From Agromyces albus (GTDB lineage Bacteria; Actinomycetota; Actinomycetes; Actinomycetales; Microbacteriaceae): a stretch of DNA of 64,000 nucleotides. The translations under genes were made by a program, and so were the position numbers. Below, piece after piece: positions 48,941 through 55,633 of the stretch. Position 1 is the first letter of the stretch. Each line of letters starts with the position of its first letter. Below the pieces are notes generated by a model that did no database searches, was not told the DNA's origin, and was given only the letters and a program-made list of their open reading frames with translations. Location of the stretch: the NCBI RefSeq assembly GCF_030815405.1, contig NZ_JAUSWX010000001.1:744001-808000 (forward strand), read 5' to 3'.

Positions 48941-51100
48941 GTGGCGCACCGCATCTACATCTGCTCGGCTGAGGGCAACACCGGCAAGTCCACGGTCGCG
49001 CTCGGAACTCTCGACACCCTGAGCCGGCGCGCGACGCGCGTGGGCGTGTTCCGTCCGATCGCCCGATCGACCGCCGAGCGCGACTACGTGCTCGAGTTGC
49101 TGCTCAGCCACGAGGGCGTGGTCGAGCTCGACTACGACGACGCGATCGGCGTGCGCTACGACGACGTGCACGCGAACCCCGATGCCGCGCTCGCCACGAT
49201 CGTGCGCCGCTTCAAGGCCGTCGAAGACCGCTGCGATGCCGTGGTCGTGCTCGGTTCCGACTTCACGGATGTCGGCAGTCCCACCGAGCTCGCCTACAAC
49301 GCGCGCATCGCGGCGAACCTCGGTGCCCCCGTGCTGCTCGTGCTCGGCGGCCGCGTCGGCGAGGGCCGCGGCCGCTCGGAGCGACTCGGCTACTCCGACG
49401 CGCGAACCCCCGACGAGCTCGCCCAGCTCACCGAGCTCGCCGTCGAGGAGCTCGGACGTGAGCACGCGAGTCTCCTCGGCATCGTGGCCAATCGCGCCGA
49501 TCCCGATCGGCTCATCGAGATCGTCGAGGCCGTGCGGGAGGCCGCCGGCTCGGGAGCGGATGCCGCGGGCACCGAGGTGCTGGCCGAGACATCCGTCGCC
49601 GTGTGGGCCATTCCCGAAGACCCGTTCCTCGTCGCCCCCTCGATGCGCACGATCATGTCGGCGGTCGACGGCGAGTTGTACGCGGGCGATCCCGACCTCC
49701 TGAACCGCGAGGCGCTCGGCGTGGTCGTCGCGGCGATGTCGATGGAGAACGTGCTCACGCGGCTCATCGAGGGGTCGGTCGTCGTGGTGCCGGGCGATCG
49801 CAGCGAAGTGCTCATCGGCGTGCTCACGGCGCACGCCTCGGCGACGTTCCCGTCGATCTCGGGCATCGTGCTGAACGGCGGCTTCCCGCTCGCCGAACAG
49901 GTGGAGCGACTCGTCGACGGGCTGCAGGCGGGCCTGCCCATCATCCGCACCGAGTTCGGCAGCTACGACACCGCGCTCGCGATCACGCATGCCCGCGGGC
50001 GGCTCGCGGCGGAGTCGCAGCGCAAGCGCGACACGGCGCTCTCGCTCTTCGAGAAGCACGTCGACGGGCAGGGCCTGCTCGACCTGCTCGACGTCGCGCG
50101 CGCCGAGGTCGTCACGCCGCTCATGTTCGAGTACGGCCTCCTCGAACGGGCGCGTGGGGTGCGCAAGCACATCGTGCTCCCCGAGGGCGACGACGACCGC
50201 ATCCTGCGCGCAGCAGCCACCTTGCTCGCGCGTGACGTGGCGGAGCTCACGATCCTCGGCGAGGAGATCGAGGTGCGTTCCCGCGCGATCGGCCTCGGCC
50301 TCGACATCTCACGCGCGACCGTGCTCTCGAACCACGACCACGTGCTCGTCTACCGTTTCGCCGACGAGTACCAGCGGCTCCGCGCGCACAAGGGCGTCAG
50401 CCTCGAGCAGGCGCGGGAGACCGTCAGCGACGTCTCGTACTTCGGCACGATGATGGTGCACCTGGGTCTCGCCGACGGCATGGTGTCGGGCGCAGCGCAC
50501 ACGACGGCGCACACGATCCGGCCGGCATTCGAGATCATCAAGACGAAGCCCGGGGTCGAGGTCGTCTCGAGCGTGTTCCTGATGGCACTCGCCGACCGCG
50601 TGCTCGTCTACGGCGATTGTGCCGTCGTGCCTGATCCCACCGCCGAGCAGCTCGCCGACATCGCCGTCTCATCGGCCGAGACGGCGGCGCAGTTCGACAT
50701 CGAGCCGCGCATCGCGATGCTCTCGTACTCGACCGGCGAGTCGGGCTCGGGCGCCGAGGTCGACAAGGTGCGCCGTGCGACCCAGCTCGTGCGCGAGCGC
50801 GCGCCGCAGCTCGCGGTCGAGGGGCCGATCCAGTACGACGCCGCCGCCGATGCCGCGGTCGCGCGCACGAAGCTTCCCGATTCCGAGGTCGCCGGCCGGG
50901 CCACCGTGTTCATCTTTCCCGACCTCAACACGGGCAACAACACCTACAAGGCAGTGCAGCGCTCGTCGGGCGCAGTAGCGATCGGGCCGGTGCTGCAGGG
51001 CCTGCGAAAGCCGATCAACGACCTCTCGCGCGGCGCCCTCGTGCAGGACATCGTGAACACCGTGGCCATCACGGCGATCCAGGCGGCGGATGCCTCGTGA
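48941..51100 (+). CDS. pta: phosphate acetyltransferase
   Basis: A 719-residue Pta of the long type. An N-terminal CobB/DRTGG-like region (IYICSAEGNTGKSTVALGTLD, a P-loop-like start) is followed by the catalytic domain from about residue 390 (RKHIVLPEGDDDRILRAA). MVSGAAHTTAHTIRPAFEIIKT, SYSTGESGSGAEVDKVRRAT and FPDLNTGNNTYKAVQRSSGA match the family. It interconverts acetyl-CoA and acetyl phosphate. The GTG is leaderless: TAGGCT (48929-48934) ends six bases before it. The stop overlaps the ackA start (GTGA), the usual pta-ackA arrangement. Confidence 0.97.
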   Translation: MAHRIYICSAEGNTGKSTVALGTLDTLSRRATRVGVFRPIARSTAERDYVLELLLSHEGVVELDYDDAIGVRYDDVHANPDAALATIVRRFKAVEDRCDAVVVLGSDFTDVGSPTELAYNARIAANLGAPVLLVLGGRVGEGRGRSERLGYSDARTPDELAQLTELAVEELGREHASLLGIVANRADPDRLIEIVEAVREAAGSGADAAGTEVLAETSVAVWAIPEDPFLVAPSMRTIMSAVDGELYAGDPDLLNREALGVVVAAMSMENVLTRLIEGSVVVVPGDRSEVLIGVLTAHASATFPSISGIVLNGGFPLAEQVERLVDGLQAGLPIIRTEFGSYDTALAITHARGRLAAESQRKRDTALSLFEKHVDGQGLLDLLDVARAEVVTPLMFEYGLLERARGVRKHIVLPEGDDDRILRAAATLLARDVAELTILGEEIEVRSRAIGLGLDISRATVLSNHDHVLVYRFADEYQRLRAHKGVSLEQARETVSDVSYFGTMMVHLGLADGMVSGAAHTTAHTIRPAFEIIKTKPGVEVVSSVFLMALADRVLVYGDCAVVPDPTAEQLADIAVSSAETAAQFDIEPRIAMLSYSTGESGSGAEVDKVRRATQLVRERAPQLAVEGPIQYDAAADAAVARTKLPDSEVAGRATVFIFPDLNTGNNTYKAVQRSSGAVAIGPVLQGLRKPINDLSRGALVQDIVNTVAITAIQAADAS

Positions 51101-52302
51101 GCATCGTCCTCGTCGTCAACTCGGGTTCCTCGTCGCTGAAGTACCAGCTGATCGACGTCGAGGCCGGGCGCGCGCTCGCGAACGGCCTCATCGAGCGGAT
51201 CGGGCAGGCCGAGGGGCACGTGCAGCATCGCCGTGAAGATGCCGAGAACGACCACGACACGTGGGACACCGACGAGGAGATCCCAGATCACGACGCGGCG
51301 TTCAAGCTCATGCTCGACGCGTTCGAGGAGCACGGGCCGTCGCTCGAGTCGCATTCGCCGGTCGCGGTGGGGCACCGCGTCGTGCAGGGCGGCTCGCGCT
51401 TCGTCGAGCCGACGGTCGTGACCGACCAGGTGAAGCGCGAGATCGAACAGCTCGAGGAGCTCGCGCCGTTGCACAACCCCGCGAACCTCGCGGGCATCGT
51501 CGCCGCGCAGCAGGCCTTTCCCGACGTGCCGCACATCGCGGTGTTCGACACGGCCTTCCACCAGACGCTGCCGCCCGCGGCCTACACGTACGCGATCGAC
51601 CGTGAGCTCGCAGCGAAGCACCGGGTGCGGCGTTATGGCTTCCATGGCACCTCCCACCGGTTCGTGTCTCGAGCGGCGGCGGAGTTCCTCGGGCAACCGG
51701 TCGAGGAGCTGCGGACGATCGTGCTGCACCTCGGCAACGGGGCATCCGCGTGCGCCGTCTCGGGCGGGCGCTCGGTGGAGACGAGCATGGGCATGACGCC
51801 GCTCGAGGGGCTCGTGATGGGCACGCGGTCGGGCGACATCGACCCCGCGGTGCTCCTGCACCTCCAGCGGGTGGCCGGGCTCGACACGGATGCCACCGAT
51901 AAGCTCCTGAACTCGCAGAGCGGCGTGCTCGGGCTCAGCGGCCATCGCGACATGCGCGACCTCGTCGGCGCGTTCGAGTCGGGTGACGAAGCGGCCACCC
52001 TCGCGCTCGAGGTGTACACGCACCGCATCCGCGCCTACGTCGGCGCCTATGCCGCCCAGCTGGGCCGCGTCGATGCCATCGCGTTCACCGCGGGTGTGGG
52101 CGAGAACTCGCCGATCGTGCGCGAATGGTCGCTCGCGGGACTCGAGGGCTTCGGCGTCGAGCTCGACGCCGACCGCAACCGGGCGCGGGCGAGCCACGCG
52201 CGCCGTATCTCGACCGATGCCTCGCGCACCGCGGTGCTCGTCGTGCCCACGAACGAGGAGCTCGAGATCGCGCGCCAGACGCTCGCGGCCGTCGAGGCAT
52301 GA
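51097..52302 (+). CDS. ackA: acetate kinase
   Basis: A 401-residue ASKHA-fold kinase. It starts VLVVNSGSSSLKYQLID and has PVAVGHRVVQGG, AVFDTAFHQTLPPAAYTYAI and RRYGFHGTSHRFVS. LHLGNGASACAVSGGRSVETSMGMTPLEGLVMGTRSGDIDPA and FTAGVGENSPIVR complete the signature. It transfers phosphate between acetyl phosphate and ADP. GTG start inside the pta stop. Converges with the SipW operon 15 bases downstream. Confidence 0.98.
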   Translation: MSIVLVVNSGSSSLKYQLIDVEAGRALANGLIERIGQAEGHVQHRREDAENDHDTWDTDEEIPDHDAAFKLMLDAFEEHGPSLESHSPVAVGHRVVQGGSRFVEPTVVTDQVKREIEQLEELAPLHNPANLAGIVAAQQAFPDVPHIAVFDTAFHQTLPPAAYTYAIDRELAAKHRVRRYGFHGTSHRFVSRAAAEFLGQPVEELRTIVLHLGNGASACAVSGGRSVETSMGMTPLEGLVMGTRSGDIDPAVLLHLQRVAGLDTDATDKLLNSQSGVLGLSGHRDMRDLVGAFESGDEAATLALEVYTHRIRAYVGAYAAQLGRVDAIAFTAGVGENSPIVREWSLAGLEGFGVELDADRNRARASHARRISTDASRTAVLVVPTNEELEIARQTLAAVEA

Positions 52303-52317
52303 GCGGACCTCCTCGGC

Positions 52318-52818
52318 TTAGTTGACCGTGCACGAATTCGAGCCGATGAGCGGCCACCTCGCCAGCGCAGTCGCGCGCGTGAAGGAGGTCCAGCCATTCA
52401 CCGTGGTCTCGAAGCCGATGGCCGCTTGCCTGTTCAACACGCCGCCGAGCAGGCCGATGTTGTATGTCGTCGTGTAGACACCACTGCCGTTCGGGCCGCT
52501 CGTCGAGGCGCCGGCGCCGATCAGCACGAGATTCGAAAGCAGGCCGTCGTTCGAGTAATAGAGGTTGATGTTCGTTGGCGCGGTGTAGCCACTCCCGACG
52601 GGGAACGACCATTGTGCGGTGAGGGTCGGCGAGAGGTCGGTGCCGCCCGCCGTGCACCCCAAGATTGTCGGCGCAACGACGGTCAGCGCGAAGAACTCGC
52701 CCTTCGCTACGGTCGCTTCGCTCCACCCTGCGTCGGTCGCGGTCGACTGCGCCGAGAAGGTGAGAACGGCGCCGAGTGCGAGTACCGCTCCGACCATGGG
52801 GTACCGGAGGCGCGTCAT
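52318..52818 (-). CDS. exported protein of the SipW operon, third substrate-like protein
   Basis: A 166-residue secreted protein. A basic start and hydrophobic helix (YPMVGAVLALGAVLTFSAQS) are followed by TDAGWSEATVAKGEFFAL, which parallels the AWxDxExATGxF cleavage region of the two SipW-type substrates upstream. The mature part is Ser/Thr/Gly-rich, has two Cys (TILGCTAGG and SNSCTVN) that may form a disulfide, and no recognised domain. It ends with TAA, rare here. The ATG overlaps the stop of the signal peptidase fusion. A structural or minor fibre subunit is an inference. Confidence 0.75.
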   Translation of the reverse strand: MTRLRYPMVGAVLALGAVLTFSAQSTATDAGWSEATVAKGEFFALTVVAPTILGCTAGGTDLSPTLTAQWSFPVGSGYTAPTNINLYYSNDGLLSNLVLIGAGASTSGPNGSGVYTTTYNIGLLGGVLNRQAAIGFETTVNGWTSFTRATALARWPLIGSNSCTVN

Positions 52819-54176
52819 CCGTTCCTCCCGTCTGGCCGCTCGCGCGGACGCCGGATCAGCGCGGCGCTTCCGGCGGCGATGAGCAGCAATGCCGCTATCA
52901 CGAGTGCGCCGGGTGCGAAGGGGAGACCCGTGCGGGCGATCCCGTCAGCCGGTGGACCCGTGCGGGCGATCCCGTCAGCCGGTGGACCCGTGCGGGCGAT
53001 CCCGTCATCCGGTGGACCCGTGCGGGCGATCCCGTAATCCGGGGGACCCGTGCGGGCGATCCGGTCATCCGGCGGACCCTTGCGGAGGATCCCGTCACCA
53101 CCTGGTCCGATGCCCGACGACTCGCCGAATCCGCTGGCACGTACGACGAGGTCTCGCCACCCCGCAGCGATCGACTCGGCGCCGCTGTCGGCCAAGCCGA
53201 CCGACAGCCGGAGCCAGCGCTCCTCGCTCGTCGACATCTCGTCGAGACGGTGGCTCGCTGCCACATCGGTCGCGGTCACGTCGAGGAGATCGCGCTGTCC
53301 CGAAGAGCAGCCGGCATCCGTCCAGCGTACGTCGCACGCGGCGACCGAAATGGTGAGCGCCGGTTCGTCGGCGGCGAACTCGAGGTCGATGTCGATGGCG
53401 CCCGGCTCGTCGGTGATCGCCTCGACTCCGACGATCCAGACGGACTCGACTCCCGGCTCGAGGTTCCGGGCCTGCTCGGCGTCGAGGATCGAGGTGAGCC
53501 GGATCACTTCGCCCTGCACGATGTGCTCGGTGGTCGCTGCGGTCGCGGGCTGGGGTGTCGTGGTCACGCCGATGAGCGCGGCCGCCACGACGACCGCGGC
53601 CGCGCCGACATGGCGCGCTCCCGTCGATCGGCGCATGCGCTCCCGGCGCTTCGAGCTGCGTGCGGGCGCTGCGCCACCCGGCGGCTCCCGCCGCGGCCAG
53701 AACGCCCACGTCACGAGGCCGGCCATGAGCACCGTCACGGTCGCCAGCGGCACGGGATTCCCTGCTGCGTCGATGGCGGATGCGATGCCCGGCACGGAGA
53801 AGATGACCTCTCGAACGTGGGAGACCGAGTAGGGGAACGGATCGTCCGTCGGATTCGCATCGCCTCGAAGCGTGAGCTCGCGAACGGCGCCGGTGCCCTC
53901 GATCGCGACCACTCGGTGGGTGATGGGCAGCGCGTCCGGGCGATCGACCGTCACGACATCACCCACCTCGACCTCGCTTGCGGGGATCTCGCGCACGAGC
54001 GCCGCTGAGCCGGCGGGGATCGTCGGCGTCATCGAGCCCGTGCTGAAGAGGATGACCGAGGCACCGAACCACACCGCGGCGAGCACGAGCAGGATGCACG
54101 CCGCACCGCCCGCGGCGAGCAGGGTGAGCACGACCTCGCCAGATACGTGCAGCGCCTTTCGTGCGATCGAGGTCAT
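52815..54176 (-). CDS. SipW-type signal peptidase fused to an IARTG-repeat, membrane-anchored extracellular domain
   Basis: A 453-residue open frame with two parts. Residues 1-160 are an ER/archaeal-type signal peptidase. TM helix 14-44 is followed by the nucleophile Ser48 (STGSMTPTIP), His87 in place of Lys (ITHRVVAI), Asp106 (RGDANPTDD) and a second TM (142-160). After a basic loop (PRREPP..SSKRRER) a third helix starts at M181. A 150-residue extracellular beta-rich region then runs to about 350 (IVQGEVIRL, CDVRWTDAGCSSG). Five GPP(A/D)DGIART-like decapeptides (367-416), a hydrophobic helix (424-441) and the basic tail RRPRERPDGRNG end the protein. Topology is consistent with one fused protein. 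M181 could also start a separate product. The gene starts 3 bases after the preceding stop. Confidence 0.8.
   Translation of the reverse strand: MTSIARKALHVSGEVVLTLLAAGGAACILLVLAAVWFGASVILFSTGSMTPTIPAGSAALVREIPASEVEVGDVVTVDRPDALPITHRVVAIEGTGAVRELTLRGDANPTDDPFPYSVSHVREVIFSVPGIASAIDAAGNPVPLATVTVLMAGLVTWAFWPRREPPGGAAPARSSKRRERMRRSTGARHVGAAAVVVAAALIGVTTTPQPATAATTEHIVQGEVIRLTSILDAEQARNLEPGVESVWIVGVEAITDEPGAIDIDLEFAADEPALTISVAACDVRWTDAGCSSGQRDLLDVTATDVAASHRLDEMSTSEERWLRLSVGLADSGAESIAAGWRDLVVRASGFGESSGIGPGGDGILRKGPPDDRIARTGPPDYGIARTGPPDDGIARTGPPADGIARTGPPADGIARTGLPFAPGALVIAALLLIAAGSAALIRRPRERPDGRNG
52921..53100 (-). repeat. six 30-base tandem repeats encoding IARTG decapeptides
   Basis: Six consecutive 30-base units (52921, 52951, 52981, 53011, 53041, 53071), with the outermost two diverged. 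They keep the reading frame. The translated unit GPPADGIART contains IARTG, like the LAxTG sorting motif of actinobacterial class E sortases. The four inner units are nearly identical, which indicates recent expansion. Confidence 0.9.
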
Positions 54177-54179
54177 GGT

Positions 54180-54812
54180 CTATCCAGAGGTTCCGGTGAA
54201 GGTCCACGTAGCTGAAGCGCTCTGGCCTTGGAAGCTGTTCGCGGCGCCCGCCATCACCCGCACATCGAAGCAGAAGCCGATCGATGCCCCAGCGGCGCCG
54301 ATGGGGTTCGACACCCCCGCTGGCGGTGCGTTCGAGAGCGGCACCCACGTCGTCGTGCCGCCGACGATGAAGGTCGAGGGAGCAGCGAACGCTGCCGCGG
54401 TACACGCAATCCCGGGATTCGGTGACGACGTGCGCACGGCGCGGTACTCGAGTGCCGTCTCCAGTCCGCCGCTGCGGTCGAGCCCGGTGAGCACGATGTC
54501 GCCGCCCACGGTGGAGGCGGGCGTCGTGCGCACATTCAGCCATGCGTAGTGCGAGACGCCGGGCGACATCGCGCTCGCAGTGAACGTCAGGCTTGCGCCG
54601 GGCGCTGCCAGGTTGTCGGCATAGGTCGGGCTTCCCGCGCTCTGCGACTGCACGTCGAAGACGCTCGAGCCGAAGTCGCCCGTTGCGACCTCAGTGTCGG
54701 TCCACGCGGCGAGCGTCGCCGTCGCACCTGCGCCGAGCACCAGCCCGCCGGCGAGCACCGCCCGCCATCGGGCGGCACCGCGCCGGCGTCGCCGTTCGGC
54801 GTGCCGTGGCAT
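54180..54812 (-). CDS. SipW-dependent-type exported protein (TasA/camelysin-like), second of operon
   Basis: A 210-residue protein with a SipW-type signal: Arg-rich start, WRAVLAGGLVLGAGATATLAAWTDTEVATGDFGSSVFDVQS. In this class cleavage occurs near TLAAW and the mature chain starts WTDTE. The mature part is a Thr/Ser/Gly-rich beta sandwich with SMSPGVSHYAWLNVRTT and a closing ASATWTFTGTSG, and two Cys. It is related to the protein at 54816. It starts 3 bases after that gene's stop. A secreted, possibly fibre-forming surface protein is inferred by analogy with TasA. Confidence 0.82.
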   Translation of the reverse strand: MPRHAERRRRRGAARWRAVLAGGLVLGAGATATLAAWTDTEVATGDFGSSVFDVQSQSAGSPTYADNLAAPGASLTFTASAMSPGVSHYAWLNVRTTPASTVGGDIVLTGLDRSGGLETALEYRAVRTSSPNPGIACTAAAFAAPSTFIVGGTTTWVPLSNAPPAGVSNPIGAAGASIGFCFDVRVMAGAANSFQGQSASATWTFTGTSG

Positions 54813-54815
54813 CCG

Positions 54816-55442
54816 CTACTCCGACGAGAGCGGATCCGTCGACGTTCCGACGAATTCCCAAGTGACTGTACCCGTGAGGTTCTGATCGATGTCAGGGCCC
54901 GCTGTCACGACGAAGCACAGGTTCAATGGCTCTTCTGTGGCCGTGAATGACGGGAGCGCAGTCGGTCCGCTCTCCGTCGTGGCGGCGCTGGGGACGAGTG
55001 TGGTCCCCGCCGTCGCCTCATCGCAGCCGGCGACGAAGGTGCCCGTGTCGACGACTTCGTAGGTGAGGTCGGCGGCGATCGGGTCGCCGCTCACCGCCTC
55101 GATCGTGAGGTCCGCCTCGTAGGTCGAGTCTGCGGAGAGCTGCACGGCGAACGGCACGGCGACGACGTCGCCAGGCGACAGCGCATCGGCGTCGACCACG
55201 AAGCTCAGGGTCTTTCCTGGAGCCACCAGGTCGCTCGAGAATGTCGTGCCGTTGGTGCTCCCCTCGAGATCGAAGGTGCCGGATCCGAAGCTGCCGGTCG
55301 CGAACTCGGAGTCGTTCCAGGCCGCGAGCGTGATCGCGGCGCCGACGCCGAGCACGAGCCCGCCGGCGATCACCGCCATCGCCTTGCGACGCCGTCCGGA
55401 CGCATTGACCTGCGCTGTTGCCTGCTCGAGTGGAGTTTCCAT
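54816..55442 (-). CDS. SipW-dependent-type exported protein (TasA/camelysin-like), first of operon
   Basis: A 208-residue protein with the signal MAVIAGGLVLGVGAAITLAAWNDSEFATGSFGSGTFDLEGS. The mature domain has APGKTLSFVVDADALSPGDVVAVPFAVQL and ends LTGTVTWEFVGTS, the same fold pattern as the next gene. The ATG at 55442 is chosen because GGGGGA lies five bases before it. In-frame ATGs upstream run into one of the GTCCCC repeats. It is the first gene of a four-gene operon that includes its own signal peptidase. Confidence 0.85.
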   Translation of the reverse strand: METPLEQATAQVNASGRRRKAMAVIAGGLVLGVGAAITLAAWNDSEFATGSFGSGTFDLEGSTNGTTFSSDLVAPGKTLSFVVDADALSPGDVVAVPFAVQLSADSTYEADLTIEAVSGDPIAADLTYEVVDTGTFVAGCDEATAGTTLVPSAATTESGPTALPSFTATEEPLNLCFVVTAGPDIDQNLTGTVTWEFVGTSTDPLSSE

Positions 55443-55443
55443 T

Positions 55444-55466
55444 GTGTCCCCCATTTGATGGGATCC
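55444..55466. promoter_or_regulatory. degenerate fourth GTGTCCCCC repeat at the start of the SipW operon
   Basis: GTGTCCCCCATTTGATGGGATCC resembles the three upstream repeats (arms GTCCC and GGGATC) and overlaps the ribosome-binding region of the first gene. Confidence 0.45.
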
Positions 55467-55531
55467 GGCCATGCGTCCCATGACTGGTGAGCCCGAGCGT
55501 AAGCGCGTTCTGAGGAGATAGCGAGCTTCGC

Positions 55532-55633
55532 GTGTCCCCCCTTACGGGGACCGGGCAAGCGAGGGTGCGTGTCCTCCCATATGGGGACTGGGCAAGCGTG
55601 GAGTACGCGTGTCCCCCGAATTGGGACAAAGCG
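55532..55633. promoter_or_regulatory. three tandem GTCCCC..GGGGAC inverted repeats upstream of the SipW operon
   Basis: Units begin GTGTCC at 55532, 55569 and 55609 (spacing 37 and 40). The cores are GTCCCCCCTTACGGGGAC, GTCCTCCCATATGGGGAC and GTCCCCCGAATTGGGAC. The first two continue with (C/T)GGGCAAGCG and the third with a degraded AAAGCGG, so the units are direct repeats as well as dyads. They lie 90-190 bases upstream of the first gene on the minus strand. A multi-site operator for an unknown regulator is likely. Confidence 0.65.

Follow-up and report, generated by a model that had tools for sequence, protein, structure and literature searches.

In the tapA-sipW-tasA operon of Bacillus subtilis, a SipW-type signal peptidase adjoins its secreted jelly-roll/Ig-type subunits, and a stop-start overlap couples the gene for the accessory subunit, tapA, to sipW; TapA initiates filaments of TasA through strand complementation (PMC10151520) and is considered to tether TasA to the wall (PMC9674648). 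Dedicated SipW peptidases likewise stand beside fibre proteins in the sipW-calY operon of Bacillus cereus and the sipW-bsaA operon of Clostridium perfringens, where SipW is presented as a separate gene (PMC10151520, PMC7395162); for BsaA no LPXTG-like sequence was predicted, and the nearby srtB is dispensable for polymerisation (PMC7395162). Here we describe a locus resembling tapA-sipW-tasA in a window of 64,000 nucleotides from Agromyces albus (contig NZ_JAUSWX010000001.1, positions 744,001 to 808,000), in which a single open reading frame (ORF; 52815..54176 of the window, minus strand, as for all features of the operon given below) encodes a SipW-type signal peptidase, an ectodomain and a sorting-type signal in one chain of 453 amino acids. 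The fusion is real and conserved across many related bacteria, and as judged from sequence its product is most likely a precursor, made up of the peptidase and a TasA/TapA-like subunit, which would be cut apart after secretion and the subunit then linked to the wall.

The locus, which has the order A-B-[SipW::Ecto]-C, differs from that of B. subtilis in that a putative accessory subunit is fused to the C terminus of SipW and ends in a sorting-type signal. With the actinobacterial substrates of class E sortases (chaplins; LAXTG) it has in common an LAxTG-type motif, a hydrophobic helix and a basic tail, and it departs from them in having Ile at the first motif position and in carrying the sorting signal behind a peptidase in the same frame. 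Another system to compare is SipA of Streptococcus pyogenes, described as a signal peptidase-like protein that belongs to a surface-fibre system and is essential for pilus polymerisation (PMC4049620); the fused protein described here keeps its catalytic residues and has a subunit-like domain besides.

A peptidase and an ectodomain in one conserved frame

The original prediction, that one uninterrupted frame joins a signal peptidase to an ectodomain, was exact in frame and coordinates. The peptidase module, of the SipW/SEC11 type (residues 1-161; 53694..54176), holds transmembrane (TM) segments TM1 and TM2 together with Ser48, His87 and Asp106, which we take to be the catalytic set, of the endoplasmic reticulum type. 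We assembled 407 homologues from 7998 scored candidates, excluding any protein below 0.55 of the query length and with it bare SipW; all three residues, like Trp160 and Pro161, are invariant in the alignment of the 120 homologues listed (358-578 amino acids long). The fused protein exceeds the cut-offs of TIGR02228 (S26 signal peptidase; 53.6 bits, curated cut-off 51.85) and PF10502 (28.1 bits, cut-off 22.9), and its SipW module has the SEC11 fold, while the cut-off of the Bacillus SipW equivalog NF046067 is not reached (29.1 bits vs 190). Hydrophobic segments lie at about residues 11-44, 142-160, 190-208 and 423-441, with a weaker one at 124-142, and their predicted inner sides carry net positive charge, in agreement with the N-in topology proposed earlier, which is conserved.

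Between the peptidase and the third of these segments runs a basic cytoplasmic linker (residues 162-189; 53610..53693), which is weakly conserved and modelled with low confidence. In comparisons with A. albus, the ratio of nonsynonymous to synonymous substitution rates (dN/dS) is 0.14 for the SipW module, 0.24 for the ectodomain and 0.84 for the linker (161-190), the fast evolution of the last being what is expected of a spacer.

The arrangement was followed in the best 80 of 276 loci from GTDB contigs, metagenome-assembled genomes (MAGs) included, two of which (L083 and L085) look like copies of one locus. SipW and ectodomain share a frame in 74 of the 80. Among the exceptions, the MAG locus L106 has them in different frames, L111 has two genes and in L122 the ectodomain gene precedes SipW; the operons of L096 and L116 have no ectodomain, and in L119 SipW is joined straight to a protein of the type encoded by gene C. 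Since these loci were ranked against a fused query, the set favours fused forms, and a less biased survey was made of 249 Microbacteriaceae genomes, in which SipW was matched in 154 and the ectodomain in 62. Within these 62, a re-count by script confirmed 25 fused genes and 26 separate genes adjoining SipW, so that an arrangement of two adjacent genes is also common; two genomes (G488, G513) had no SipW match within the 5 kb fetched, and nine weak matches were kept outside the fusion count. The ectodomain scored at least 76 bits in 26 genomes, 24 of them with the fusion, and the split arrangement mostly belongs to a more distant SipW/ectodomain pair. A broader survey of the class with TIGR02228 matched 212 of 296 genomes at E<=0.001, 85 of them over the cut-off; it yielded open frames of widely differing lengths and did not enter the counts. 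On a quickly built tree of 126 rows, in which 54 of the 123 inner branches are open, we counted roughly ten changes between the joined and unjoined states, a figure made approximate by the many weak branches.

That the single frame might be a frameshift or an assembly artefact, as the different frames of the L106 MAG could suggest, has a negligible probability: the same fused frame crosses the junction in A. albus and in many other genera, isolate genomes included, all six segments tested have a dN/dS under 1, and relatives already refute such an error for the 453-residue gene. The conservation of the junction across genera thus rules out the sequencing error at 53630-53640 that had been considered, and the existence of fused genes in 25 genomes disposes of the idea that homologues are always two genes, even though split forms exist.

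Joining of this kind takes other forms as well. In [Zimmermannella] faecalis (L050, 4897-6684) and in the Leucobacter MAG UBA1945 (L060, 2274-4103) the frame continues from the sorting signal into C; in Leifsonia ALI-44-B (L119, 5362-6972) SipW is joined directly to C with a signal of the LAAWTD type; and in L132, from another family, SipW (ORF of 354 amino acids) is likewise joined directly to a C-type protein, with the ectodomain as a separate gene. These cases suggest that the in-frame joining of peptidase and secreted protein probably arose more than once. In the split loci L226, L229, L232 and L233 the ectodomain gene is followed by a long ORF, part of which matches the A/B/C profiles; it may encode a large surface protein dependent on SipW.

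The third hydrophobic segment and the C terminus

The third hydrophobic segment (residues 190-213; 53538..53609) had been read as a third TM helix. Its hydrophobic nature (190-208) is borne out, and the pattern of conservation points to a different role: Ala is found at position 211 in 112 and at position 213 in 117 of the 120 homologues, while the columns of 190-210 are hydrophobic yet so variable that no residue exceeds 61 of 120 in any of them. The structure model has a predicted local distance difference test (pLDDT) score below 50 at 205-213, so that nothing suggests that the fold of the ectodomain needs the Ala pair. In the split relatives L126, L127 and L122, a Met-(basic)-hydrophobic-AxA segment directly precedes the ectodomain at the protein's N terminus; in Arthrobacter bambusae (L111) the ATG of the separate ectodomain gene overlaps the SipW stop, and its sister L114 reads through with the same Met kept inside the frame. 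With a crude regular expression, AxA was recovered close to the junction in 81 of the 87 fused rows and in 23 of the 32 unfused ones; in sequence this rich in Ala, such counts are only supportive. Together, these data indicate that the segment, with its conserved AxA site, is probably a cleavable internal signal peptide, and the 453-residue chain therefore probably a precursor.

At the other end, ILRKG, a degenerate copy at residue 363, and the five exact IARTG decapeptides that had been reported (residues 373, 383, 393, 403 and 413) occupy residues 363-417 (52926..53090), followed by a hydrophobic helix and basic tail (residues 418-453 and stop; 52815..52925). In the DNA the array (52925-53097) is a 30-bp repeat (5.8 copies, 93%), whose score of 283 is the highest of the 15 tandem repeats listed in the window. 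Only the last IARTG copy adjoins the helix. The repeat columns are gaps in 116-119 of the 120 homologues; two relatives (P0004, P0005) have the motif once and two others (P0002, P0003) have other duplications at the same place. The array is, on the sequence evidence, a local minisatellite expansion at the sorting signal, and we rejected its reading as a functional repeat family or a family trait.

What the family does conserve is the sorting signal itself, (L/I/V/M)-(A/P)-x-(T/S)-G followed by a hydrophobic helix and a basic tail, in line with the sortase-like anchoring first proposed. The motif columns hold L in 74 and I in 30 of the 120 homologues, A in 82 and P in 28, T in 99 and S in 20, and G (Gly417) in 119; Gly436 of the helix is present in 118. 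The A. albus tail reads IARTG-helix-RRPRER, which has the layout of a class E substrate save for the Ile in place of the Leu of LAXTG. A single sortase, of class E, was detected in the genome at E<=0.001, and five of eight other LPXTG-type candidates read there end in LASTG, LAATG or LPATG plus a helix, endings that fit such an enzyme. SrtE1 cuts LAXTG as well as LPXTG peptides and favours Ala by a factor of two (PMC5148588).

The operon and the fold of the ectodomain

Upstream of the fused gene lie two genes for secreted proteins of the SipW-dependent type, A (54816..55481; 221 amino acids, start uncertain; TIGR04088, 32.2 bits) and B (54180..54812; 210 amino acids; 28.7 bits), both above the TIGR04088 cut-off of 19, so that candidate cognate substrates stand close to the peptidase. 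Downstream lies gene C (52318..52818; 166 amino acids), which has by eye a SipW-substrate-like N terminus and matches no NCBIfam or Pfam family of note; its family has an N-terminal T-x-A-x-W pattern with the look of SipW-dependent signals. From the spacing, with gaps of 3 nucleotides between A and B and between B and the fused gene, and a 4-nucleotide overlap of the C start with the fused stop, we infer a single four-gene operon. At E<=0.001, TIGR04088 matched only A and B in the whole genome, and TIGR02228 only the fused gene. At 66 of the 80 loci, two A/B-type genes stand upstream and a single C gene follows, and six of the other 14 lie near a contig end.

A few observations concern the surroundings. 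In a Glaciihabitans MAG (L046, 1493-7589), the complete A-B-[SipW::Ecto]-C operon occurs twice in tandem. A 37-bp tandem repeat (55530-55617; 2.3 copies, 82%), possibly regulatory, lies just upstream of gene A, and two ORFs resembling, by eye, pta and ackA (48941-52302, plus strand) converge on the operon; ORFs similar to this pair come after the C gene in L096 and L116.

The ectodomain (residues 214-360; 53097..53537), with conserved Cys281 and Cys290, is predicted to be a beta-sandwich, the AlphaFold 2 model of this part on its own having a pLDDT of 89.2 and a predicted template modelling score of 0.82. Its sequence profile, A3, finds proteins on SipW-matching loci with per-genome E values of 5e-10 to 2e-4. 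Foldseek placed diphtheria-toxin-type chains at the top for the full model, and virus capsid chains headed the list for the ectodomain alone; both were set aside as the similarity common to beta-sandwiches. TapA was not among the fold matches listed for the ectodomain, and a sequence search of solved structures gave no match at E<=1 with the ectodomain profile and a single weak, irrelevant one with gene A.

Probable processing and a possible role at the cell surface

As a whole, we consider it somewhat probable that the chain is a precursor subject to internal cleavage, class E wall linkage and a TapA-like anchoring of A/B/C fibres. It would be made as one chain, with the SipW module and the ectodomain both ending up outside. 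The operon and the type of the signals suggest that the module processes the signal peptides of A, B and C; a cut near Ala213 of the internal signal peptide (190-213), by the SipW module itself or by the housekeeping signal peptidase, would free the N terminus of the ectodomain, which the class E sortase could then link to the wall through its (I/L)AxTG-hydrophobic-basic tail. By analogy of gene order and domain type, the wall-linked ectodomain may serve as anchor or starter for fibres of A, B and C, the part played by TapA in Bacillus. That SipW would act in cis on the signal peptide of the subunit attached to its C terminus, the chain being a self-processing polyprotein that delivers one wall anchor per peptidase to the fibre which it supplies with mature subunits, is a tentative extension; in [Zimmermannella] faecalis and one Leucobacter MAG such a polyprotein would include a C-type secreted protein as well.

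Several results weigh against this explanation. The ectodomain is patchy within the genus, being found in 2 of 6 genomes, and its fold matches are middling, with unrelated proteins scoring equally; the profile match expected with A and B was weak (hhalign probabilities of 2-51%). No TIGR04088 signal appears in the fused protein at E<=1, where there is a plain AxA site instead, and the AxA expression misses six of the 87 fused rows and nine of the 32 unfused ones. At E<=0.001 the genome has one canonical signal peptidase I, so that self-cleavage is not required. Finally, TIGR01167 (LPXTG_anchor) does not return the protein's own tail, either at E<=1 or among its 15 matches in the genome at E<=10.

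This last result, the open frame and the self-consistent topology would suit a chain that stays whole as a four-helix membrane protein, in which the ectodomain, next to the peptidase, would keep freshly cleaved subunits ready for assembly and the C-terminal helix would act as a plain membrane anchor. We regard this as unlikely, since the AxA pair is kept while the stretch before it varies, the same segment stands at the N terminus in split relatives, and Gly417 and Gly436 are conserved. The frame might also give two proteins, the second of them starting at Met181, which lies before the signal-like segment and behind a GGGAG stretch; in L114 an internal Met is retained at the point where the separate gene of L111 begins. 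Such a second start is nonetheless very improbable, as the Met181 column is a gap in 104 of the 120 homologues, Met is not among its commonest residues, and GGGAG means little in a GC-rich stretch. Of the original interpretation, the fused frame, the topology and the sortase-like C-terminal end are real and conserved; the third TM helix is better taken as an internal signal peptide, conservation does not support the internal start, and the repeats are a local expansion. The link that it drew between cleavage and surface display is plausible, with the 453-residue chain likelier a precursor than the mature machine.

Another conceivable reading is that the ectodomain is no structural subunit and serves the peptidase in docking or regulation, in keeping with its usual place directly after SipW, fused or as the next gene. 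Operons with SipW, A, B and C and no ectodomain speak against it (L096, L116 and those of G372, G432, G482, G526, G455 and G400, at L201-L203 and L205-L207), as do two genomes (L200, L237) carrying an ectodomain gene with no SipW match in the 5 kb fetched. The six genomes named hold the distant SipW/ectodomain pair elsewhere (L235, L231, L230, L227, L226 and L233), and so may not lack the function; on the whole we hold a docking role to be rather improbable. The ectodomain gene of L200 (G488:C1:2567500-2572500) has a sorting-type tail.

By title and the start of the abstract, no description of SipW fused to a wall-anchored domain was recognisable among the papers listed by searches of the open-licence PMC literature, where the SipW/TasA-type work met concerns Bacillus and Clostridium. 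The homologues, where their source names them, are usually called 'signal peptidase (I)' or 'hypothetical protein' (P0058, named for its LPXTG anchor, is an exception), names that leave the surface half mostly hidden. The precursor reading points to a widespread actinobacterial version of the system, in which the peptidase and a wall-anchored subunit would be one gene product, with relatives occurring naturally in fused, split and ectodomain-free forms on which cis-processing and the anchoring of fibres can be tested directly.
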